Shown piece by piece: positions 6,929 through 19,944 of a stretch of DNA of 20,875 nt. The stretch is from a virus: the IMG/VR virus record IMGVR_UViG_3300032084_000521, positions 1-20,875 of that record. One strand, written 5' to 3'. The notes beneath the pieces are model-generated. The model did no database searches. It was given only the letters and a program-made list of their open reading frames with translations, and was not told where the DNA came from. A program made the position numbers and the translations under genes. Every line of letters starts with the position of its first letter. Within the stretch, counting starts at the first letter, position 1.

Positions 6929-8923
6929 TCATACACCTATTACGAAGTCTGTGGCTACTAGAAGTAAACTGTATGCGTAGTAGTTGTTGCCAGCATCATA
7001 TCGCACATGAAGTTTCTCCGGCATTATCCTAATACCGCCGTCATTACCATGAGGATTGGTTTTCAAAGTTACAAAAATATCAGTAACCGAAGAGGTAACA
7101 AACCCTATCAAACTAGTTACATCATCTACTATACTACCGAACCACTCTCTGAGTATACTATCTTTATCTACACTGAAATCAGGCTTATTACCTCCGGCAT
7201 CTCCAGTCAGTAACAAACCGTGCATAGGCTCTGACGCAGCCCTATTATTGGCTATCGAGCCTTTTTCAGAGGCTGGTATTTCACCGAAAGTTAAGAAGAA
7301 GTTCCTAGCAATGCTAGTCACTCCTGAACTTGTAATAAGACTGTCATAGGGTATCTGTATACCAGTAAACAAGTCTCCTGAAGTCTTACTTGAATTTGAA
7401 ATCAAACCTATCAAATCCTGCGCTTTATCTCCCGCTGATTTATTAGCGAAGGAACTGAACGAGTTAGTTGAATTGTAAGACTCTATGAATTCAGATATAC
7501 CTTGACTGAATAACCTAGGGTGTTCTATTGACTTATCAGGTTTATAGATTTGCTCTATCATAAGCACTGCATTACTACGAGTTACTCTGAATGTAGTAGG
7601 TTGGCCGCTATTGAACAACTTACTGTCACCTTCAGGGTTGAGCCTAGTTGTTGTAAATGCAAGTAAATTATCACCTAGTTGAAACGCTGACTCTACTATT
7701 TCGGCTAAGTTAGCAGCAGGGCTACCACTTGCTGTCGCCAAGCCCTTGATGGGTATAGAAATCTCTATGTCATTATAGGCGGCATCACCTACACAAACGC
7801 CACTGCCTAAAGGTGCTGATGTAAATCTCCTAGAACTTTCATATTGAGGAGTAGCGCTACCTCCGGCTACTACGGGAGTTTTGGTAGCGTCGAAGATAAA
7901 CTTGATTCCGTAGTTATTGTCAGTACCTGCGGTGTACTCATCTGCATCAGGTAAAGAGCCAGTAGGTCCTCTACTAGGGTCTTCTAACCAGTAAGACGGT
8001 ACGAGTTTGATATACTCGTTATTCAGCAAATCTTCAATACCATCGTTACTTTTGTTGAGGGTTATTTCAGTACCTTCTAGCACGTCAGCCTCTATTTTTC
8101 TATCAAGCGTCAAAGTAATGTCAAAATTATCATTGGGTATGTCCACATAGCGAGCGTCTGTTACAAATCCCAAAAATTCGTTTTTGTAATTGAAACACTT
8201 AGGACTTGCATAAAGTCTGTCGTTAACGGATATAGCCACTGATAAAGCAGCAGTAAACGTAACACTGACACCAGTAACGCTTTGTACTATACCTAGTAAA
8301 TCACCGTTATCGTTCTCTATCCTATCACCTATGTTAATCAAGAGCGAAGGTATTACAGACACTCCGCCTACGGCTGCTGATATGTCTAGTGCACCTGTCG
8401 CTCCTATTGAATAACTATCTGTAAATTTTATACCAGTAATAATCCTAGTAGTCGGGTCTTCCGTAGGTTGACAGCCGGGATGACTGTAATCGTAAGTTCC
8501 GTCAACTACGTTAGATATTGTATCAGTAGAGTTTTTTCTCAAACTATTGGTCACGGTGTAAGTGTTTGTATAAAACACACGAGGTCCGTTAGAAGTAGCG
8601 TACTTTACCGGTTTGAAAGTAGAAGATGACTGAGTGGGCAATATGCTACCGAAGTTGATTATGGTTCTCATAGGAGTTACTGATAACAAATCCTCTGCGC
8701 CTGTAACTCCTGATATGTCAGCACCTTCATCATTTGACAATATACCATTTATTTCCATAGTAACTCTAGGTATGTTAGTATCGACAGATATTCTTTTGAG
8801 TACGTTGCCCGGTGTAGGGAAAGCACTTACGTTTCGGTCAACTGCTATGTCTATACTTTGTGCATCTAAATCTACAGATATCTCTCCGTCGTTGCCAGCA
8901 AGAAGTTTAATTGGTATAGTCAT
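6929..8923 (-). CDS. Tail-tip/baseplate protein B, paralog of the preceding gene
   Basis: A 664-residue protein starting at ATG 8923 behind GAGGTGAT, nine bases after the stop of its upstream neighbour. Residues 1-95 (PIKLLAGNDG, QSIDIAVDR, PRVTMEINGI) match the first ~90 residues of the neighbour in order and spacing. The C-terminal third again matches through SAGDKAQDLIGLI, GIQIPYDSL (about residue 520) and ARNFFLT. The centre differs: it lacks the LamG insertion and carries a short beta module, GDRIENDNGDLLGIVQSV, at residues about 197-241. The final residues (YYAYSLLLVATDF) parallel the neighbour's last strand. Position right after the tape measure suggests a distal-tail (Dit-like) or hub role, probably as a ring in the virion. 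I do not recognise an exact family, so this rests on synteny and paralogy. Confidence 0.8.
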   Translation of the reverse strand: MTIPIKLLAGNDGEISVDLDAQSIDIAVDRNVSAFPTPGNVLKRISVDTNIPRVTMEINGILSNDEGADISGVTGAEDLLSVTPMRTIINFGSILPTQSSSTFKPVKYATSNGPRVFYTNTYTVTNSLRKNSTDTISNVVDGTYDYSHPGCQPTEDPTTRIITGIKFTDSYSIGATGALDISAAVGGVSVIPSLLINIGDRIENDNGDLLGIVQSVTGVSVTFTAALSVAISVNDRLYASPKCFNYKNEFLGFVTDARYVDIPNDNFDITLTLDRKIEADVLEGTEITLNKSNDGIEDLLNNEYIKLVPSYWLEDPSRGPTGSLPDADEYTAGTDNNYGIKFIFDATKTPVVAGGSATPQYESSRRFTSAPLGSGVCVGDAAYNDIEISIPIKGLATASGSPAANLAEIVESAFQLGDNLLAFTTTRLNPEGDSKLFNSGQPTTFRVTRSNAVLMIEQIYKPDKSIEHPRLFSQGISEFIESYNSTNSFSSFANKSAGDKAQDLIGLISNSSKTSGDLFTGIQIPYDSLITSSGVTSIARNFFLTFGEIPASEKGSIANNRAASEPMHGLLLTGDAGGNKPDFSVDKDSILREWFGSIVDDVTSLIGFVTSSVTDIFVTLKTNPHGNDGGIRIMPEKLHVRYDAGNNYYAYSLLLVATDFVIGV

Positions 8924-8932
8924 TCTATCACC

Positions 8933-11476
8933 TCACAAGATTATATCGGCTGCTATGAATTTCAAACTGAACTCATAGGCTTTCATCGCTGCATCTCTCT
9001 TTATGGTAAAGTCGGTGACAATACCACTTATGCCATTTTTCAAATATCCTTCAGACGAATGAGAGAACGACCTAGAAGCATGTACGTCGTTAGCACTCGA
9101 TAGTTTGTCAGAAGTGCTACCTTCTGTAGTCAAGAAAAAGTTTCTTTGGGCAACTTCGGCATCAAGTGAATTTTTACCCTTAGTTGTCAAAGAATCGTAA
9201 GGTATCTGTATACCTCTGATGTAATCGCCACCTGAATCGTAACCAATCACGTTGTTAACGAAATCAGCACCTAGTTGTAATATATCAGTCGCTGCGTTTA
9301 TTTGAGGGTTAGATGTGAAGTTGTTACTGTTAGCAAGTATACCGAGTAAGTCCTGTACTTTGTCACCAGCACTCTTTACTTTCTTTCCGCTTCTGCCACC
9401 TGAGAACCCTTGTATAACCGGTATCTGTCCTACTCCTAAATTGGTGTTAATAGTATCAGATAGACTACCCAAAGAAGAAGCGTGTTTTTGAGTCAAGGTC
9501 AAGCGAGAAGCATGATTACTGGCCGAAGTAGAAATGGTAGCCGTAAACGCATTAGCCATTGTTTGGTTATTGTTAGCGTCAACTGGTCTACCCATGTCTA
9601 TGTAATCAGCAGTCAGCGCTTTTGATAGCAGGTAAATCAGGTACTCGTCTGTCCTAGTTATACCGCCACCAGTATCTCTAGGCGCTGTGTTTTCATGGTC
9701 AGGGAATTCAGGACCTACTGCCTTTTCAGGAGCGGCCTGCTCATCGAATGTATCGGCGTTCTTTATTGGTATGATTAAAACAGGAGTCAATTCCGTAGAA
9801 AACAAATTGGCTACGCCGTAATCAACTGCATCGATATATATCTCATCACCAATGGCATGAGGCTCAGCCGAACCATATTTGTTAGCATAGTCTATGGTAA
9901 AACTGTAAGTACCGTCTCCATTGTCAGTTATTGTCTTGACGATACCTGCATATATTTCTCCATTGACCTTTCGCCAAGGACCGTCCGGGCTACGGAAAAG
10001 TACACGATATTCACGTTCACTTTCGGTGATTTCAAAATAGTCTTGAGGATTGACTCCATCTACTATTATCTCTTGCTTGTCCGTGCCGCTTGAACCAAAG
10101 TCTATTATTCCCATACCCGGAATTATTCTTCTTTTATTGATGAAGCCGTATGGCTCTGAATAACTTGCTACCATGTTTTTATCAAATGCTACACGGATGT
10201 GTTTTGTGTCATAATTATAAGAATCACTTTCGTAGTAATCATGCTCTGATTCTCGTATTTTTATTCCGTGCTTACGGGCTAGATAGCCTTCTACTTTTTC
10301 TAACTCTAAAGCGTCAAGTCTCCTATTGTAAAAAGCGATTTCATAAATATCTCCTTTGAAGAAATCACTAGCATCTTTGCCTATGTTAAAAGCCGAAGTA
10401 TCTTCGGGCGTAAAGTCAGTAGAAGTGTCTTGAGTAGATAACCCATCTATGAAAAACGTAGCAGTATCTGACTGAGCATTAGCGTTAGTATCGTGCATTG
10501 TTACGGACAAAATGTGTTTATCACCAATCATGGTTACTGCACTATTACTGTTTAAGGTGTTAGAAGAAGTGCCCTCCCACTTGAACGTACACCTAGTGTT
10601 GCTTCTGTCCATGACTAATGAATAGCCGCTATCTGTCTCATCACTGGAACTGATAACTGGTTGGTTACCTGAGCCAGCGTTATTTTTACAAGCCACAATA
10701 AGAGTAAATTCTTCTGAGTTCAGAAAAGGACTGTTAGCAATCGACATGAAGTCGTTAAATCCATCAAACCTAACGGCTGTATCAAACTCAGAAAGTCGCA
10801 CGTACTTTGGCTTTACAGTTGCACTTGATTGTGTTGCATTCCTACCGTTACCGCTACTGTCTGCCCAAGTAGATACTTCGTCATTATGATTGAGTGTACT
10901 TGCTAAAGAGTCAGATTTCAAATGCAATTGTAAGCCATTAGTGACAGGTATTCCTAATTCACCTGAAGCCTCCACCCAATATGCTAGTGGAAAATCGATG
11001 TATCTCTTGTTCCAATAACGGAGTATTCTGTTGCCGAAGTCTGTAAAATCACTAGGTATAGTACCACTCGACCCTCCAAATCCACCGCTAAAGCCACCTG
11101 TGAAACCAGTAGCCGTCAAACCACTTGACGCAGAGCCGCTATTGAAAGATGAAGTTATACCAAAAGTAGGTGTGCCGCCTCCACTATTGAGCGGTTGACC
11201 CCAGTTAACAACTTGCTGCGGCTGAAATAAATCGATAGTAGCGGTGGCTTTTGATGTCGCCTCTTGTCCTAAATCGTCTGTAAACACTCCGTTTATTTCT
11301 ACGGCCACTTGAGATTGATTGAGGTCTATACCCATACGCTTTGCGTCAAAGAAAGGAATACCAAAGTTAGACTGTACTCTTTCGACTACGATGTCTATAC
11401 TAGTAGCATCAAGAGAGATAGTGTCACCATTCTCTTGTACCAGTTTGACTGGCATCCTTTCTCCTTCGTCTGCCAT
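8933..11476 (-). CDS. Tail-tip/baseplate protein A with LamG-like lectin insertion
   Basis: The frame can be read from a GTG at 11500. I prefer ATG 11476 (847 aa): it follows the tape-measure stop by one base (TGA-G-ATG) and has AGGAG eight bases upstream. ATG 11455, with its own GGAG, is a second possibility. Numbered from 11476, residues about 8-90 form the domain shared with the next gene (MPVKLVQENGD, SIDIVVERV, QVAVEINGVF). A Gly/Ser-rich linker follows. Residues about 180-405 look like a LamG/lectin fold (GLQLHLKSDSL, AVRFDGFNDFMSI, GDIYEIAFYNRRLDALE). The C-terminal region holds SAGDKVQDLLGIL, RGIQIPYDSL (about residue 754) and QRNFFLT, all conserved in the paralog. The shared ends are probably structural at the tail tip. 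The lectin-like insert would bind host surface glycans; that is inference. Confidence 0.8.
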   Translation of the reverse strand: MADEGERMPVKLVQENGDTISLDATSIDIVVERVQSNFGIPFFDAKRMGIDLNQSQVAVEINGVFTDDLGQEATSKATATIDLFQPQQVVNWGQPLNSGGGTPTFGITSSFNSGSASSGLTATGFTGGFSGGFGGSSGTIPSDFTDFGNRILRYWNKRYIDFPLAYWVEASGELGIPVTNGLQLHLKSDSLASTLNHNDEVSTWADSSGNGRNATQSSATVKPKYVRLSEFDTAVRFDGFNDFMSIANSPFLNSEEFTLIVACKNNAGSGNQPVISSSDETDSGYSLVMDRSNTRCTFKWEGTSSNTLNSNSAVTMIGDKHILSVTMHDTNANAQSDTATFFIDGLSTQDTSTDFTPEDTSAFNIGKDASDFFKGDIYEIAFYNRRLDALELEKVEGYLARKHGIKIRESEHDYYESDSYNYDTKHIRVAFDKNMVASYSEPYGFINKRRIIPGMGIIDFGSSGTDKQEIIVDGVNPQDYFEITESEREYRVLFRSPDGPWRKVNGEIYAGIVKTITDNGDGTYSFTIDYANKYGSAEPHAIGDEIYIDAVDYGVANLFSTELTPVLIIPIKNADTFDEQAAPEKAVGPEFPDHENTAPRDTGGGITRTDEYLIYLLSKALTADYIDMGRPVDANNNQTMANAFTATISTSASNHASRLTLTQKHASSLGSLSDTINTNLGVGQIPVIQGFSGGRSGKKVKSAGDKVQDLLGILANSNNFTSNPQINAATDILQLGADFVNNVIGYDSGGDYIRGIQIPYDSLTTKGKNSLDAEVAQRNFFLTTEGSTSDKLSSANDVHASRSFSHSSEGYLKNGISGIVTDFTIKRDAAMKAYEFSLKFIAADIIL

Positions 11477-11477
11477 C

Positions 11478-11957
11478 TCAGCCGCTCCTGTTGAATCCAC
11501 TTTGAGTCAATGAGCCGCCCATCTTACTTCTCAATTCTTTAGTTACCATATTGCTGATTTCTTTAGCCAGTGCCTTTTTGTCACTCTTGTCAGTTACACC
11601 GCTTACGTCTATTCTTAGGTTAACTGTGATGTCAGGAGCGCTAGTCGCTTGTGTTGCTGTAGCAATAGGCTCACGGTTTGCACCAGTGGCTGGTGCTTGA
11701 GTACGATTCATAGTTTGCTCTAGCCCGGTCTGTACTTCTTTGATTGAGTCCTCTATTTGGTGAAAAGGCTCTAAGTTGCTCAAGTTTCGCAAAGACTCCG
11801 TCAAATCTTTGGTATTGCTCTTAGTCATTGACATAGAGTTAGTGAACTTGTCCATCTGCTGTTGCAGGGCCTGCATGCTGTCTTTAGCAGACTTACTATA
11901 CTCTTTGAATTTCTCCATCGCTTCTACAGAGCGGGGGTCTATGTTACCGTCCATCAT
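11478..11957 (-). CDS. Candidate tape-measure protein, unusually short
   Basis: A 159-residue protein starting at ATG-ATG (11957 or 11954; GGAGG spacing favours the second). The first ATG overlaps the TGA of the chaperone extension. Residues about 10-90 are heptad-like and helix-rich (EAMEKFKEYSKSAKDSMQAL and following), then an Ala/Thr/Pro linker. Residues about 108-159 read like a classical tape-measure C-terminus: DITVNLRIDVSGVTDKSDKK, then ALAKEISNMVTKELRSKMGG. Tape measures lie directly after the frameshifted chaperone pair and set tail length at roughly 1.5 angstrom per residue. On that rule this one would specify a tube of about 24 nm or less. Known tape measures are usually several hundred residues or more and often have hydrophobic segments; I see none here. 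It could instead be a small coiled-coil tail protein with the true tape measure elsewhere. Confidence 0.7.
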   Translation of the reverse strand: MMDGNIDPRSVEAMEKFKEYSKSAKDSMQALQQQMDKFTNSMSMTKSNTKDLTESLRNLSNLEPFHQIEDSIKEVQTGLEQTMNRTQAPATGANREPIATATQATSAPDITVNLRIDVSGVTDKSDKKALAKEISNMVTKELRSKMGGSLTQSGFNRSG

Positions 11958-12246
11958 ATCTCCTCCACTGGGGGCACTACGTCATAGCCCAAGTAAACTG
12001 CGTTGTCAGGCAACTTTTCTTCACCGTGCATAGCCTGTGCCCAGTACATGAGTTGCTTTGCATCATCCATACTCAATTGCCTAACCTCCTGTAAATTCAT
12101 GTTATAATGTGTCATCAAAAGGTACTCCAGCCCTTCTCGTTGGTAGCGAAGTCTGTCAACGACGGACTTACCGTGGATAAATTGTTTGATGTTACCGACT
12201 TCGCTTCCCGAAAAACTAACCATTCCATGACCTGAGAAGGGTCAGG
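11954..12246 (-). CDS. Tail assembly chaperone frameshift extension (gpT-like frame)
   Basis: This frame is offset by -1 from the chaperone N-terminal gene and overlaps its 3' end by more than 100 bases. It opens after a TGA near 12247 and runs to TGA 11956-11954, which overlaps the ATG of the tape-measure candidate. An internal ATG at 12223 would give 89 aa but lacks a convincing binding site. The helical composition (VDRLRYQREGLEYLLMTHYN, then NLQEVRQLSMDDAKQLMYWA) fits the second half of tailed-phage chaperones. The start coordinate is the earliest possible entry point, not an initiation codon. I expect it to be made as a fusion of about 175 aa, as in lambda gpG/gpGT, present at low ratio during tail assembly and absent from the virion. 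Confidence 0.7.
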
Positions 12247-12480
12247 TAGCAGTTCTGCAAGCGCTCTACCTTCCTCAGGTGTCAGGTTTTCCATGTCGAA
12301 ATAGTCATCGTAAAGCAACCAGTTGTTGAAAGCGTAACGCCAGTAGTCAGAGAAATCTAAATTACCATTCATGAACAGTGGTGCTACCTTTTGAATATCA
12401 AAAAATGTCAAGCGTTTTGCTGATATTTGGTAGGGTAGGCCGTTTATTTCTATTTCATTCTTCTTCGGTTCCTCCGACAT
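12115..12480 (-). CDS. Tail assembly chaperone, N-terminal product (gpG-like)
   Basis: A 121-residue acidic helical protein starting at ATG 12480, inside the last 26 bases of the preceding small gene, suggesting translational coupling. A compact N-terminal strand region (EIEINGLPYQISAKRLTFFD) is followed by helices with WRYAFNNWLLYDDYF and LTPEEGRALAELLPDPSQ. Such a 100-150 aa acidic protein between tail tube and tape measure is typical of tailed-phage tail assembly chaperones, which bind the unfolded tape measure and recruit tube subunits. The zero-frame tail after residue 90 (Ser/Thr/Asn-rich) looks less structured than the -1 frame over the same bases, which supports frameshifting. No sequence family was confirmed. 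Confidence 0.75.
   Translation of the reverse strand: MSEEPKKNEIEINGLPYQISAKRLTFFDIQKVAPLFMNGNLDFSDYWRYAFNNWLLYDDYFDMENLTPEEGRALAELLPDPSQVMEWLVFREAKSVTSNNLSTVSPSLTDFATNEKGWSTF
12208..12216 (-). promoter_or_regulatory. Putative -1 ribosomal frameshift site
   Basis: On the coding strand the zero-frame codons are TTA-GTT-TTT-CGG, with five T in a row at 12215-12211. A Phe tRNA on TTT can slip back one base and pair perfectly with TTT again. The incoming zero-frame codon would be CGG, which looks uncommon in this AGA/AGG-biased gene set. Slippage joins residue 90 (Phe) to Ser-Gly-Ser-Glu of the extension frame. This is not a textbook X-XXY-YYZ heptamer, so the exact site is uncertain. The shift must lie between the TGA opening the -1 frame (near 12247) and the zero-frame stop at 12115. 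Confidence 0.5.
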
Positions 12481-12676
12481 ACTTACTCACTTCCTTGTCA
12501 GAAGCCGCCTCATTAGAGGGGGCCTCCTCTGATTTCAGGTGAGCGAACGGGTTATCGCTGGCTCTCCCTGCTTCAGGGTCGAAGAGGTATTCTCCACCTT
12601 CTTCTTCTTCTTCTTCCTCAACGGGAATTGCAAAATAGGAATTTGGGCTAAGGGACATCCAAGTTCTCATCGGCAT
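12455..12676 (-). CDS. Small acidic tail-region protein with poly-Glu run, unknown function
   Basis: A 73-residue protein with a strong binding site (AGGAGG seven bases before ATG 12676) directly after the TAG of the tail tube gene. It has a short hydrophobic-aromatic N-terminus (MPMRTWMSLSPNSYFAIPV), then seven consecutive Glu, then a polar, probably disordered acidic tail. Its last 26 bases overlap the start of the chaperone gene in another frame. The location between tube and chaperone suggests a tail-assembly accessory, or simply a coupling leader for the chaperone. I recognise no family. The good binding site and gene packing argue that it is real. Confidence 0.65.
   Translation of the reverse strand: MPMRTWMSLSPNSYFAIPVEEEEEEEGGEYLFDPEAGRASDNPFAHLKSEEAPSNEAASDKEVSKYVGGTEEE
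12598..12615 (-). repeat. Six-copy GAA/CTT trinucleotide repeat
   Basis: Six perfect CTT units on the plus strand encode most of the seven-Glu run of the 73 aa protein. Such a tract can change copy number by replication slippage without breaking the frame, so Glu-run length may vary among related viruses. Confidence 0.85.
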
Positions 12677-12687
12677 GGTCAGTCCTC

Positions 12688-14775
12688 CTAACAGTGGTAC
12701 TCCGTATCTTCGCTTATGACTTTAATGTTTTGAGGCTTTATCTTCATAGTAGTGAAGAGCAAACCTTTGTCATCAGGCATAGGTATCGGTAACTCGGTTA
12801 TGAAATAGTCATCTATGATTATTCTCAGACTAGGTGTAGTGCCGGAATCACCTGTTGTTACAGGTTTGGTAAAGTGCAACATTATGACACCGCCCTGTGC
12901 GTTAACAGTACCACTTCTCTGTATGTGAGTTCTTAGTTCGTGATATATCGTTTGGCTTTCTAATGCAACTGTGATTTCCATTTCAAAGTCTTCACGCCCT
13001 TCTCTTACTATGCTAGCGTTACGAGTACCACCATAAGGTATCTGCTTTAGACTTAGGTTAGTGGAAGAGTCAACGGACTCTGCTACAGGGTTACTCTGTA
13101 TAGTGTGGAATAACTCGACACCTGTTTTACCTCTAAGTTCAAACGCTGTGATTAGATTGATATCTTGATTGAATGCACTAATTGTACCGTTGTAAAACAT
13201 AAACGGCTTTTCAGAGCCGCTTGCTATACCGCTAGACTTTCTACCTTTCAAAGTATCAGCCGTGTTTTGGAACATACGATGAGCAGTGTATCTGTCACCC
13301 TTGTTAGAGGATTCTAGTCTACCAGTGTCAGTATAACAAGCAAGCGCATCGAATACGCACCTGTACTTTAGTTCAGCATCTGTGGTAGAAGATATTTCCC
13401 ATTCGACTATCTTACATCCTTTGAATATACGAGTTAATTGCTTGCTGTCACCTTCACTGTCAGGTGCCACTGTAGATTCGCCTGTCGCATTGAAAGAGCC
13501 TAAATCTCTAGTCCTAATACTATGTTCTATCGAGAAACTAGGTATAGTCTCAGCAGAGAAAAGTAATCTGCGTACTGGATTAGTGATTGTGCGAGTAGTA
13601 TTGACGTTAGGACTACCATTAGTGTTAGAGTCATGATATTGCCTAAGTTCAAGAGTGTCACTGGTAGTATGTTGGAACTGCCAAGCGTCGTCTACATACA
13701 GTCTGAATCTACTACTGCCTAAGTCTTCTATAGCGCTTATTCGCCTGCACTCACTACTTTCAGCCCACTCAAAGTGATAACTGTCACCCGATAAGTTAGA
13801 GCCTGAAGACTCAGAAGGCCAGTATTTGTCATTGTCTTTTTGAGGAGTTTTGTAAGTAGTGGTGGGCACTAAGGTAGTATCTTTGATGAGTAAGTAATCA
13901 CCTACAGCCGCATCAGTACCGGAGCCAAACCTAACACTTCCGCTCTCGCTGCTTGTGACATCTATGTAACCTTGACCGGGCGCTACATTTGCGTATATTG
14001 TAGGTACTGGGCTAGAAGAGTGCGCTAGTAATCCACAAGTATCTTTGCTCACTACTTCTCTACCAAGACTATAGTACAACCACTTGGCACTGTGCATAGG
14101 TAATTCTAGCGAGCCGCCCATGTGATGAACCTTACCTGTTTGCTGAACAGCCACTTGTCTACCTAATCCTACTACGTGGTAACTATGCAAATCGACAGTG
14201 GTATCAGGTAAGGTCATGAAACTAGCCAATCCAACAAACTGGTCAATCATACTGACTTCTTTTGATGAGGCAGCCGCAGTGTTCATTGCGAAGTTAGCAT
14301 CACCTTGTATGGTCGGTAGACCTGTGGAGTGTAATAGGATGGCATCACCTGTCCCGCTGTTTATCGAAGTTACACCTGAAGGAAATCTTAGAGCAGGTAC
14401 TATTTTCAATACTGTAGCAGATGTAGCGGGCGAATCTGTGTTGTTTTCCAAAGTGTGGTCTACTATTGTATAGACTCTACTTTGAAATGAATTGTTGTAA
14501 TAACTAGCAAACGCATTAGTGCCCGTAGCAACAGAATGGAAAGTCATCTTTTGTCCTATCAACATACCAAGTGGTACTTTCAGTATAGGCTTAGCACCTT
14601 CAAATATACTGGTGTTACCTACACTAGTCGTACCTCTGAACTCCAATTTAGTGTAATCTGTAGCAGATACAGCGGTAAATGTTCTAGGCTGGCCGTGTTC
14701 TATCAGCACGCTAGTCTCATGACCCATTGTGACTTCAGAGACATCGCCTTTGTAATGTGCACCAAAACCACTCAT
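12688..14775 (-). CDS. Major tail tube protein, enlarged by beta-rich insertions
   Basis: A 695-residue protein whose ATG overlaps the stop of the upstream gene (ATGA). Near residues 411-470, IPSFSIEHSIRTRD followed by FKGCKIVEWEISSTTDAELK resembles the core strands of siphovirus tail tube proteins, where a charged strand is followed by a conserved G-C/T-K-V segment and alternating hydrophobics. Residues about 590-690 give a second beta region ending in LRIIIDDYFITELPIP and the motif MKIKPQNIKVI. Typical tube proteins are about 150-250 aa, so this one either carries large surface domains or fuses two tube-like halves. Position just before the chaperone/tape-measure block supports the tube role. 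An alternative is a tube-like baseplate protein with the true tube elsewhere. Confidence 0.65.
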   Translation of the reverse strand: MSGFGAHYKGDVSEVTMGHETSVLIEHGQPRTFTAVSATDYTKLEFRGTTSVGNTSIFEGAKPILKVPLGMLIGQKMTFHSVATGTNAFASYYNNSFQSRVYTIVDHTLENNTDSPATSATVLKIVPALRFPSGVTSINSGTGDAILLHSTGLPTIQGDANFAMNTAAASSKEVSMIDQFVGLASFMTLPDTTVDLHSYHVVGLGRQVAVQQTGKVHHMGGSLELPMHSAKWLYYSLGREVVSKDTCGLLAHSSSPVPTIYANVAPGQGYIDVTSSESGSVRFGSGTDAAVGDYLLIKDTTLVPTTTYKTPQKDNDKYWPSESSGSNLSGDSYHFEWAESSECRRISAIEDLGSSRFRLYVDDAWQFQHTTSDTLELRQYHDSNTNGSPNVNTTRTITNPVRRLLFSAETIPSFSIEHSIRTRDLGSFNATGESTVAPDSEGDSKQLTRIFKGCKIVEWEISSTTDAELKYRCVFDALACYTDTGRLESSNKGDRYTAHRMFQNTADTLKGRKSSGIASGSEKPFMFYNGTISAFNQDINLITAFELRGKTGVELFHTIQSNPVAESVDSSTNLSLKQIPYGGTRNASIVREGREDFEMEITVALESQTIYHELRTHIQRSGTVNAQGGVIMLHFTKPVTTGDSGTTPSLRIIIDDYFITELPIPMPDDKGLLFTTMKIKPQNIKVISEDTEYHC

Positions 14776-15245
14776 GGTATCAACTCCGCTAGTATGACTA
14801 CTTCTACTTGGAACGTGTGACGGAATAACTTCTTGGTTCTGTCGCTCAAGTCAGTCCTAGTTTTCAGAATCATACGGTCAAAGTTAGCACCGTCGCCTTT
14901 TCTTGATACGTGTATTATACGTCGCATCTCATCTTCCATCTTACGTAATCTACTGCGCCCTCTCGTAGTCCTCATGTCTACAGTGATGTTTACTCTAGTT
15001 GTGACGAAGTTGTAGAGTAAATCGGGCACTTCTTCATTTAGAGCCGTCTCGTAGCACAGTATGTAATCGTGGCGTTGTAAATCTAAACGCTTACCTCTTT
15101 CAGGTCCATCACTTGCGATATCGAGAATAATTGGTTTGATATTGTCAGTGTTAGACCTGTTCCAACCTGTCTTAGCAGAACTGTCATAATCTGCTTTGAG
15201 TAAATCAATAACTGTGTTGAGTGGCTCTTTCCAATCTGCCGTCAT
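14772..15245 (-). CDS. Tail terminator / tail completion candidate
   Basis: A 157-residue alpha/beta protein with ATGA overlaps at both ends, so it is translationally coupled to the adaptor candidate upstream and the tube gene downstream. The N-terminal helix (EPLNTVIDLLKADYDSSAKT) and the central strand-helix unit (VNITVDMRTTRGRSRLRKME, then DEMRRIIHVSRKG) fit the fold of small neck or terminator proteins that cap the tube and bind the head connector. The size matches the lambda gpU/SPP1 gp17 class. The assignment comes from size, fold pattern and gene order, not from a recognised signature; a head-closure protein is the main alternative. Confidence 0.55.
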   Translation of the reverse strand: MTADWKEPLNTVIDLLKADYDSSAKTGWNRSNTDNIKPIILDIASDGPERGKRLDLQRHDYILCYETALNEEVPDLLYNFVTTRVNITVDMRTTRGRSRLRKMEDEMRRIIHVSRKGDGANFDRMILKTRTDLSDRTKKLFRHTFQVEVVILAELIP

Positions 15246-17116
15246 GCAAACACCACCACTTCCTTGTAACGAGATAAGATTTCCATAGCCTCTCTGCGGA
15301 ACAGTTGAGCCTTAGAACCTAAATCGATGTTCTGAGTCCCTTCAGGTATCAACACGCTACGGTCATCACTCATCAAGAGTTCACTTGCTACAAGTTTCGT
15401 GGCCGCTTCTTCAATCGCTTTCTCAAGATAGCGCTCTCCGTAAATGTAAGACGCTTTGACCGCATTCCACTCAAAATAAGGATAAGAGTTGTTGAAGTAA
15501 ACTATTCCCATTTCATGGTCTAACCACCAGTCTTTGAGTCTTGCTTGGTCACCACCAGCATCGGAGAAAGCACCTATGTCAGATTGTAAAGCATACTGTG
15601 TAACGGTAGTACCTTTTACTCCGCTTCCTGAACTTCCTCCTATGTTTGGAATGAAACTGTTACCCCCTGACATATTACTAACTCCGGTAAAAGTAGTGCT
15701 TGTTTTTCCAGTGTACTGTGCTACACGAGTGGTGTCCCCGTTAACAATCATAATCAGACCTTGTGGTAAAAACCCATCAGTACTCGCTACCGATAAAACC
15801 GTTTGTGTTGTACTATCTGCTAATCTAGCAGTATGCAAAGCGCCTCCAACAACCGCATCATAGAAATTGACAGTGCTCGTCAAAACTATTGATGTGGCAC
15901 CAAGACTACTAACGACTCCTAGTAAATCACCATTAGATTGGTAAACCGAATCTCCAGCAGCGAATATACCACTTGGGTCTTGAACTGTATCTATGGTCGT
16001 ACCAATGTGACTCACCACCGTAAGAGAAGTGGGGTGTACACCTGTTGTAGTAGACTTGCTACTAATTTGTTTTATTGTTAGATTAGTCAAATCACTTGCC
16101 GCAATCGATACATTCTCTCCGCCATTAGTTTGACGAAGACTAGTGACTTTTAATTTACCATTGCCGTAGTCTGAATTAGCACTAGCCAATAGTTCGTTAT
16201 GAGCGGCTACGTTACTCGTGGAACCTTCTACTGTAAACGTAGGAGCGAACTCTACAGCCGCCTTGCTTACTCTGTCTTCTTTATTGATAAGGTCAGCAAG
16301 GTTTTGAGCAGCGCTTACTTTATCGAAGTCAGCCCTCCATTTTGTAGAAGCATCGCTACCTTCTTCTAACCTCACTACGCTTCCATTTGTGAGTCCAAAG
16401 TATATACTAGCAGCGGAAAGTGCAGACTCATCTACGATTTCTAATCTAGCCTCCGCACTAGCAAGTTCACGGTAACTGTCACCTTGCCACACTTCAAGTC
16501 TGAGTATCTGCTGCACGTTTCTAAACAAAAGAGGTACTGTACCTACGTAATCGGTGTAGTAACGTCGCCTGTATGGTTTGTAAGTATCGAAGTTAAGATA
16601 CTCTGCACTAACAAGATAAGGTCGCCAAGCATTGTGAGTATAGTTGTCAATCCTATCCTGTATCCTACGGATGTGCTTGTTAACAATGTCTTTGGTGACT
16701 CCTCTTTTCTTGCCATTAGTAAAGATGGTTTTGTTCTGAATCTCAGTGTTTGCGACTGTAGTATAACTTGCAAACGCATCGTTAGTACCTGCTGCACCCG
16801 AATCTAACGTGACTGGTAACTTGACATATTTAGTACCGCTAACGTCTTCGACGACAGGTGTACCAATAGTAAAAGTCTCACCAAGGGGATACAAGTCACT
16901 GAATACAAATATAGAGTCGCCACTTTCAAATCCGTGCTCTCTCAAATCTGTACCTGATATGTAGAAACCTGACGCTGAAGAATCGGCAGCAGCAAGCACA
17001 GGCTCGCCCGGAGCGATTCCCAGCAGTTCTCCCACCTTATCGCCTGTCGTGTAAACGATAGCGTCAGGGTCTACAGGTCGAGTCTCTGCTTCTCCGGGTG
17101 AAAATACTGCTGGCAT
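15242..17116 (-). CDS. Head-tail adaptor candidate with large beta-rich insertion
   Basis: A 624-residue protein starting at ATG 17116 behind GGAGGATGAGTT. The helical pieces at the two ends resemble a gp6/gp15-type connector: a helix near residues 138-160 (VTKDIVNKHIRRIQDRIDNY, followed by THNAWRP) and a C-terminal bundle from residue 563 (EKAIEEAATKLVASELL, then GSKAQLFRREAMEILSRYKE). Ordinary adaptors are about 100-200 aa. Between these helices are several hundred residues of Ser/Thr/Gly-rich beta sequence, including AAQNLADLINKEDRVSKAAV, a segment type seen in phage surface domains, and the module GDSVYQSNGDLLGVVSSLG at residues about 385-428. The role inferred is the ring between portal and tail; the insertion may project outward as a collar. 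Confidence in the gene is high, in the function moderate. Confidence 0.6.
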   Translation of the reverse strand: MPAVFSPGEAETRPVDPDAIVYTTGDKVGELLGIAPGEPVLAAADSSASGFYISGTDLREHGFESGDSIFVFSDLYPLGETFTIGTPVVEDVSGTKYVKLPVTLDSGAAGTNDAFASYTTVANTEIQNKTIFTNGKKRGVTKDIVNKHIRRIQDRIDNYTHNAWRPYLVSAEYLNFDTYKPYRRRYYTDYVGTVPLLFRNVQQILRLEVWQGDSYRELASAEARLEIVDESALSAASIYFGLTNGSVVRLEEGSDASTKWRADFDKVSAAQNLADLINKEDRVSKAAVEFAPTFTVEGSTSNVAAHNELLASANSDYGNGKLKVTSLRQTNGGENVSIAASDLTNLTIKQISSKSTTTGVHPTSLTVVSHIGTTIDTVQDPSGIFAAGDSVYQSNGDLLGVVSSLGATSIVLTSTVNFYDAVVGGALHTARLADSTTQTVLSVASTDGFLPQGLIMIVNGDTTRVAQYTGKTSTTFTGVSNMSGGNSFIPNIGGSSGSGVKGTTVTQYALQSDIGAFSDAGGDQARLKDWWLDHEMGIVYFNNSYPYFEWNAVKASYIYGERYLEKAIEEAATKLVASELLMSDDRSVLIPEGTQNIDLGSKAQLFRREAMEILSRYKEVVVFA

Positions 17117-18810: not shown

Positions 18811-19944
18811 TCACTGTAGGTCACGGATAGAACCTTGACCTCCGAAGAATGTTGTCCAAATTTCTCCCATTGTACGGTACAGACCTTCCTGTCCTAGTCT
18901 GTTGATTGCGAATGGGTCGCCTGTTTCGATTCCCGACTCAAAGTATTGAGTTGGTTTTGCTGTACTGAAGTACATGTAATCAGTATCTAGCATGTAAATT
19001 CTGCTGATACCGTCAGAAGCCATATCCTTTGTTGGGATGATTGGTACACCGTTGTAGGTTGCGACAATGAATCCTGCCTCAACACCCGGTACACCCTTCA
19101 CACCGTTGTAAGAAGGTACTACTCTCTTTTCTTCCATGAATCTCTGCTGAGCCTGCAATAGTTGCTGGATTCTCATTAGAGTGTCATATCCTGTTAGCAT
19201 AACCTTAGGGTTACCTCCACGCTCCCAAATGAGTCTGAACAACTCATCTAGGTGGTCGAGTGATAGAGTTCTGTTAGTAGAACCGCTGTCAGCAGAGTCC
19301 TCAGCGTATGACCAAGAGTTGCCTGTAGCGTTGCGGTCAATACTGTAGATGTCTTCGTCACCAGCATTATAGTGAGTACCGGATGTCATGCTGTTGTTAC
19401 CAGTAGTTACACGGTCAAGTGACTCGAAGTCGTTACCTGCAACTGTGGTTACGTCTCTAGTTAGCATTTGGTTGATGTGCTCAGCGTGGTGCTTACCCAT
19501 CTCTTCCTTTAGGACAGAGCGAATGTCGCCTAGTCCGTCATCCTTGTCATTCAAAAAGATTGCAACCTCAGACATATCGAATGAGTGTGCGATTGTCTTT
19601 GGCTTTGCTGCAACATTTTGGAATGTAGGCTTGGTGGTTTCAGGTAGTGTACCGTTCTCTGCAATTCCGCCACCCTTTGATGTAGAAGGTTTTGCGGTTA
19701 CAACTCTCCAACCACTGCGGTCCCAAGGCTTCTTTGGTAGAATGGAGAATGCGTTGAATTCTTGGTTCAACTGACTCCAAACTTTGCGTCCGTAGATTGC
19801 TTGGTAAGTACCAGCGGTTGTGCTCAATAGTGGAGCGTCTGCCTTCAATAGTTCGCTACCAGTGTAAGAGTAACCCATTGAGTTACCTGCACCATAGTAG
19901 TAGCGCTCCATGTCGTTAACTGTTCTCATGTAATTTCTTGCCAT
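18811..19944 (-). CDS. Major capsid protein, HK97 fold
   Basis: A 377-residue protein starting at ATG 19944 with GGAGG eight bases upstream. Its order of elements matches HK97-type capsid proteins: an N-terminal arm (ERYYYGAGNSMGYSYTGSEL), VWSQLNQEFNAFSILPKKPW around residue 55-70 leading to an E-loop-like strand pair, a long P-domain spine helix (SVLKEEMGKHHAEHINQML), PKVMLTGYDTLMRIQQLLQA near residue 244, and A-domain strands with NGVPIIPTKDM near residue 300. The length is normal. There is no N-terminal delta domain, so scaffolding must come from a separate protein, presumably the gene just upstream. Codon use is specialised: of 20 Ile codons I count 12 ATC, 8 ATT and no ATA, as expected for the most abundant virion protein. 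Confidence 0.9.
   Translation of the reverse strand: MARNYMRTVNDMERYYYGAGNSMGYSYTGSELLKADAPLLSTTAGTYQAIYGRKVWSQLNQEFNAFSILPKKPWDRSGWRVVTAKPSTSKGGGIAENGTLPETTKPTFQNVAAKPKTIAHSFDMSEVAIFLNDKDDGLGDIRSVLKEEMGKHHAEHINQMLTRDVTTVAGNDFESLDRVTTGNNSMTSGTHYNAGDEDIYSIDRNATGNSWSYAEDSADSGSTNRTLSLDHLDELFRLIWERGGNPKVMLTGYDTLMRIQQLLQAQQRFMEEKRVVPSYNGVKGVPGVEAGFIVATYNGVPIIPTKDMASDGISRIYMLDTDYMYFSTAKPTQYFESGIETGDPFAINRLGQEGLYRTMGEIWTTFFGGQGSIRDLQ

Follow-up and report, generated by a model that had tools for sequence, protein, structure and literature searches.

A probable miniature tape measure protein in a magrovirus-type archaeal tailed virus

Introduction

Can a siphovirus-type tail be organised around a tape measure protein of only 159 residues? 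Tape measure proteins set the length of the tail, at about 1.5 Å per residue. Their usual length is hundreds to thousands of residues, and they have a further role in membrane crossing; hydrophobic or membrane-inserting segments are common, not universal, among them. The question is posed by a linear virus fragment of 20,875 bases (the window, i.e. the whole stretch of DNA analysed here), whose main genes are all encoded by the minus strand. Here, the first-pass annotation had pointed to a 159-aa protein as a candidate miniature tape measure in an otherwise complete long-tail gene set and had derived from it a tail of roughly 24 nm or less.

Results

The window is a 20.9-kb piece of a magrovirus-type genome. 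We take the magroviruses to be the viruses of Philosof 2017, belonging to the order Magrovirales (e.g. Apasviridae). They are viruses of marine group II archaea with genomes of 90-110 kb, are related to the Druskaviridae, have been reported among the most abundant marine viruses and are so far known from metagenomes only (PMC12999244, PMC10160649). Among annotated viruses, the capsid protein of the window is closest to those of Haloarcula vallismortis tailed virus 1 (HVTV-1) and other Druskaviridae (33% identity) and of a Methanofastidiosa virus. In the window itself all genes are virion genes; the magrovirus gene set was found in its relatives, whose contigs extend to 91-109 kb. Besides the HVTV-1-related capsid protein, the near-full-length relatives encode a family-B DNA polymerase, a TCP-1/cpn60 chaperonin, an RFC-like ATPase, an ERCC4 nuclease and a PD-(D/E)XK nuclease. 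With its capsid protein and the gene set of its relatives, the window virus fits the magroviruses.

The virion genes of the window are collected in Table 1. Their order parallels that of HVTV-1, i.e. capsid protein, adaptor (gp125), terminator (gp127), tube (gp128), frameshifted chaperones (gp129/130) and tape measure (gp131). In every relative, the gene of the 159-aa protein occupies the same slot, directly after the chaperone-type pair and before the tip genes, so that the location given in the first-pass annotation is borne out, with the chaperones as candidates by position. The ORFs in the chaperone position gave no profile match; their candidate identity is drawn from position and from a -1 overlap with a conserved slip-like site. 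At this overlap, upstream of the tape gene, 12 genomes all have the codons GTT TTT CGG, whereas synonymous changes occur in the leucine codon just before them.

Table 1. Features of the window and the evidence for their assignment.
Feature	Position	Strand	Evidence or remark
Giant tip/fibre protein, first 2312 aa	1..6936	-	~5200-5700 aa in relatives
Tail-tip protein 2, 664 aa, paralogue of tip protein 1	6929..8923	-	hhalign E 1.4e-37
Tail-tip protein 1, ~847 aa from likely ATG, LamG-type lectin insert	8933..11476 (ORF to 11500)	-	Laminin_G_3 E 1.2e-10; family A7
Probable miniature tail tape measure protein, 159 aa	11478..11957	-	Slot; C-terminal domain homology with long tapes; purifying selection
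Tape-measure C-terminal domain, residues 109-150 (TVNLRIDVSGVTDKSDKKALAKEISNMVTKELRSKMGG)	11508..11633	-	Profile comparisons
Conserved coiled coil, residues 14-45	11823..11918	-	Heptad register common to 16/16 sequences; helices in model
Second chaperone frame (candidate), 89 aa, -1 relative to first	11954..12223	-	ORF overlap
Tail assembly chaperone candidate, first frame, 121 aa	12115..12480	-	Position and frame overlap as HVTV-1 gp129/130
GTTTTTCGG, candidate -1 slip site at frame overlap	12208..12216	-	Invariant in 12 genomes
Small ORF, 73 aa, role unassigned, between tube and chaperones	12455..12676	-	Relatives up to 138-145 aa
Tail tube protein, 695 aa, enlarged relative of HVTV-1 gp128 (337 aa)	12688..14775	-	hhalign E 2.3e-5, probability 76
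Tail terminator/completion candidate, HVTV-1 gp127 homologue	14772..15245	-	E 6e-6 for G010 copy
Head-tail adaptor candidate, HVTV-1 gp125 homologue with large insert	15242..17116	-	E 7e-11 and 2e-6
HK97-type major capsid protein, HVTV-1-related	18811..19944	-	Sequence matches

The tube protein is linked to gp128 of HVTV-1 also through the copy in the relative G010 (BLAST E 5.6e-4). Owing to inserts, the tube and adaptor proteins are about two to three times as large as those of HVTV-1, which would point to a neck and tube with heavy decoration. The first-pass annotation had set an expanded tube against the short tape. The enlargement compared to HVTV-1 stands; tube size as a partner of tape shrinkage was rejected, as the tube protein measures ~630-850 aa in long-tape relatives as well.

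The ORF of the 159-aa protein starts with ATG, is preceded by a good ribosome-binding site (GGAGGAGAT), has an intact stop and overlaps the upstream ORF by 4 bases. Comparison with a 98%-identical relative gave 32.5 synonymous and 4.5 non-synonymous changes (dN/dS 0.03); in comparisons with six more distant relatives the synonymous sites are saturated and pN amounts to 0.11-0.25. Relatives of the protein are carried by 36 further contigs, always in the same slot, and full copies measure 136-160 aa, with one copy cut by the contig end. Judged by these comparisons, it is a real coding gene under strong purifying selection.

Residues 14-45 are hydrophobic at 8 of 10 a/d positions in one register (shuffle p = 0.0015), and this register is identical in all 16 aligned sequences (individual p 0-0.0225), which bears out the coiled coil named in the first-pass annotation. 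The structure prediction proposed there yielded an AlphaFold model of modest confidence (pLDDT 58) with helices at residues 8-44, 51-60, 63-85 and 124-146, i.e. a mainly helical coiled-coil rod as in tape measures. The most conserved part of the protein is the C-terminus VNLRIDVSGVTDKSDKKALA. Among the short tapes two length classes occur, 136-141 and 153-160 aa, which alternate in several branches of the capsid tree (L016, L045 and L048 compared to the window); in the alignment, the two classes differ by a helix segment of 14 residues (two heptads) and by part of the linker. The GEAGPE motif is absent from the short form. A hydrophobic segment, too, is absent from every short tape of 136-160 aa including the 159-aa protein (maximal 19-residue Kyte-Doolittle value ≤0.45); every tape of at least 177 aa has a hydrophobic stretch (maximal value 1.25-1.95). 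We read the missing segment as the loss of an accessory, not a defining, function.

On its own, the 159-aa protein gave no significant match in PHROGs, Pfam, NCBIfam and PDB sequences, be it to a tape measure or to a family of another kind; in particular, it showed no direct profile match to phrog_15478 (the Druskaviridae-type tape measure) and none at E 0.01 to the RcGTA-type tape model NF058675. A direct hhalign comparison of the protein with its close relatives only against haloarchaeal tape measures was likewise not significant, and the link therefore runs through longer magrovirus members. These came from a search with the capsid protein, which added 80 loci and in which the profile of the 159-aa family then found longer same-slot proteins. 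The short and the long same-slot profiles match over the C-terminal 49 columns with E 9.5e-15 and probability 98. This is the only significant profile match of the 159-aa family; it upholds the tape-measure-like C-terminus of the first-pass annotation and supports the tape measure identity, by a match confined to tape-measure C-termini.

The long magrovirus tapes in turn match haloarchaeal virus tape measures in profile-profile comparison (E 2.8e-9, probability 96, 83 columns). The longest same-slot proteins match many tape-measure families (phrog_1535 with E 9.8e-17 and 1.1e-12; phrog_15478, the family of HVTV-1, with E 6.4e-8), the matches of long relatives to phrog_15478 ranging from E 4.4e-9 to 1.5e-6. 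Their matches to NF058675 (E 3.9e-5 to 3.6e-4) lie far below the cut-off of that model. Four long tapes (contigs G019, G020 and G023, locus L141) contain the signature GGIVN.PTLA.IGEAGPEAV.PL or GGVVTGPTLAMIGEAGPEAVIPL, and the GEAGPEAV signature immediately precedes the domain with which the 159-aa protein ends. The N-terminal coiled coil has no detectable homology to long tapes, the C-terminal domain alone being common to both. The C-terminus of the 159-aa protein is thus a tape-measure C-terminal domain, and via the longer magrovirus relatives an unbroken chain leads from this protein to tape measures annotated in imaged viruses. Homology to HVTV-1 gp132 was rejected on comparison, and where the long-tape profile hit viral spike proteins in PDB, we take this as a likeness between coiled coils.

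The survey of tape length in related genomes suggested by the first-pass annotation returned same-slot proteins of 136-160, 177, 189, 208, 211, 223, 234, 269, 289, ~397, 428, 432 and 450 aa, the weakest member of the series being the 208-aa protein of G026 (E 7e-4). Tapes of 177-450 aa were found in viruses sharing 77-85% capsid protein identity with the window. In the capsid tree, all short forms fall on one side of a weakly supported branch (58/90), and the short forms minus two deep members make up one well-supported group (97/93). A single origin of the short form is compatible with the capsid-protein tree. Rooted on HVTV-1 (480 aa), the tree suggests that this form is the derived one, but the HVTV-1 branch is very long.

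Repeats of 29-33 residues occur within several of the longest tapes, and rulers may therefore grow and shrink by units, a possible step of tail-length change. Tandem repeats of 32-33 residues were seen in the long tapes L149 (1977-3263), L141 (8672-9898) and L148, with identity of at most 33% at lag 32 compared to at most 13% in shuffles.

Since the window is a fragment, the claim that the genome holds no longer candidate was tested in relatives. The long-tape profile hit exactly one place, the slot, in all ten relatives searched (near-full-length G001, G002, G009, G010, G011, G020, G021, G025 and G031 and the fragment G019). Among these, the short-tape near-full-length relatives G001 (91 kb), G002 (80 kb), G009 (109 kb), G010 (97 kb) and G011 (97 kb) gave one match each; phrog_1535 was absent from these five genomes and present in the long-tape G019 and G020. 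The claim thus held as far as the data allow: the evidence against a second tape measure in the short-tape viruses is strong, though short of absolute, the records being linear and of unstated completeness.

Two other large proteins were considered as tape measures. A ~1820-aa protein upstream of the protease, the one further long candidate with helices in the virion module and present in all relatives whose contigs include DNA upstream of the capsid gene, was rejected as a hidden tape measure, being equally long in long-tape viruses (1736-1962 aa). It lies between portal and protease (L058 8204-13657, corresponding to G010 25204-30657) and shows a weak match to an ATP-dependent DNA ligase domain (E 1.5e-4). 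The giant tip/fibre protein was rejected for its helix-poor composition and lack of a tape-measure match. Its gene comprises ~5200-5700 codons (15-17 kb, about one sixth of the genome) and follows the tip genes in short- and long-tape viruses, e.g. G002 44865-60575, G010 45352-62535, L154 and L150; in G001 (39493-56909) it is split into three ORFs, either by an assembly error or by a real break.

Two paralogous tip proteins (560-1246 and 431-795 aa) occur in all short-tape viruses examined, while the long-tape viruses examined have one, of 372-517 aa; tail-tip protein 2 was found, among those examined, only in short-tape viruses. By its position, tail-tip protein 1 would be Dit-like. A fold search with the tail-tip protein returned meaningless matches, the model being too poor (pLDDT 41.5).

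Discussion

We consider it highly probable that the 159-aa protein is the tape measure of a magrovirus-type archaeal tailed virus, built of an N-terminal coiled coil, a short linker and a conserved tape-measure C-terminal domain. Slot, chaperone arrangement and C-terminal homology argue for this identity, and within it the protein is extreme in size and in the loss of the hydrophobic segment. The literature searched, which does not include Philosof 2017, the founding paper, names no magrovirus tape measure, so that priority is not certain.

The protein can be set beside several described systems. HVTV-1 gp131 (Druskaviridae, phrog_15478) likewise lies between a frameshifted chaperone and the tip genes, and HVTV-1 and the window share relatives of the capsid, adaptor, terminator and tube proteins, with the C-terminal tape region linked via the long magrovirus tapes. 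However, gp131 has 480 aa, hydrophobic segments and a GG motif, whereas the window protein is a third as long and has no hydrophobic segments. The first-pass annotation knew of no well-described tail this short that keeps chaperones and a tape measure, a statement that needs qualifying by RcGTA, whose tape (Rcc01694/g11) has ~216 residues and whose 49-nm tail contains five tube discs of 38 Å (PMC7296036). RcGTA is hence the nearest well-described precedent for a very short tape inside a siphovirus-type tail that is itself short. Both proteins are very short and consist of an N-terminal helix and a C-terminal domain. The RcGTA helix comprises 113 residues compared to ~78 in the window protein; moreover, RcGTA is an alphaproteobacterial gene transfer agent, whereas the family described here is viral, about a third shorter again and part of a natural length series. 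PMC7296036 draws a link from the RcGTA tape to the gp26 tail needle of P22 (Podoviridae), which is also a short rod-like coiled coil plugging a short tail. This likeness is one of working at most: gp26 is a needle at the tip, the window protein would be a ruler inside the tube, and no sequence match to gp26 was found in PDB sequences.

In lambda, TP901-1 and SPP1, tape and chaperones dock on the tip, tube rings polymerise around the tape and the terminator caps the tube (PMC8718954). In the window virus, the chaperones would bind a short rod that, like the one in RcGTA, is probably trimeric, the tape C-terminal domain would sit on the tail-tip ring, the tube protein would polymerise around the rod until it is covered, and the terminator would cap the finished short tube. 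The short form has lost the hydrophobic stretches of the long tapes, which possibly serve membrane insertion, and so probably acts as ruler and plug only. It would probably no longer form the membrane channel attributed to tape measures; as a guess, the duplicated tip or the giant protein may take over this channel.

At 1.5 Å per residue, we infer a tail tube of about 20-24 nm (136 aa giving 20 nm and 159 aa giving 24 nm), and the tube may be shorter still because only ~78 residues are helical before the linker. We would thus expect ~4-6 discs, at most ~24 nm, plus an enlarged tip. Over the whole range of tapes, tails in this virus group should differ about threefold, down to nearly stub length in the window virus. 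HVTV-1, the nearest imaged relative, with its 480-aa tape and a tail of 73 ± 5 nm (PMC4284463), fits this ratio, which speaks against the reading that the protein is a tape measure in a tail exceeding 24 nm, whether because copies stack end to end or because the tube is limited otherwise. In RcGTA, baseplate and neck do add length beyond the five discs, and the tip of the window virus is enlarged and duplicated, so that total tail length will exceed tube length. For end-to-end stacking of tapes, on the other hand, no precedent is known to us, and we regard a tube longer than the ratio predicts as unlikely.

The protein could also be a small tip plug or adaptor with a tape C-terminal anchor, the real ruler lying elsewhere or being lost, which would in effect make the virus a podovirus. 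The missing hydrophobic segment, the lack of a direct tape-measure profile match and the second tip protein in the same clade all agree with such a role. Yet the near-full-length relatives encode no other tape measure, the ~1820-aa helical protein is no replacement, the genes for tube, terminator and chaperone-type proteins are retained, and the tape lengths grade from 160 via 177 to 189 aa; this makes a mere plug quite improbable. From its size one might suspect that the gene is a remnant, truncated or broken, or else an artefact of assembly, the haloarchaeal virus tape measures compared having 419-620 aa. This idea is refuted by purifying selection and by conservation of the gene over its full length in dozens of independent contigs, its start, ribosome-binding site and stop being intact, and we give it practically no credence.

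Taking the 159-aa protein as a tape measure, we tentatively propose, as a scenario with somewhat less than an even chance of being right, that one magrovirus lineage has turned a siphovirus module into a near-podoviral one. Here, the tape would have been reduced to a soluble coiled-coil plug of 136-160 residues, its membrane-active part dropped and a second tip protein taking over, and together with the sister tapes of 177-450 aa it would form a length series spanning the gap between long- and short-tailed viruses.

In conclusion, rulers of 136-450 aa in one slot of viruses with closely similar capsids make it testable how short a ruler can be, whether ruler and membrane functions separate, and how long-tailed viruses become short-tailed. 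The finding also predicts the virion shape for a group that is thought to infect abundant marine archaea and that has so far been known from metagenomes only.
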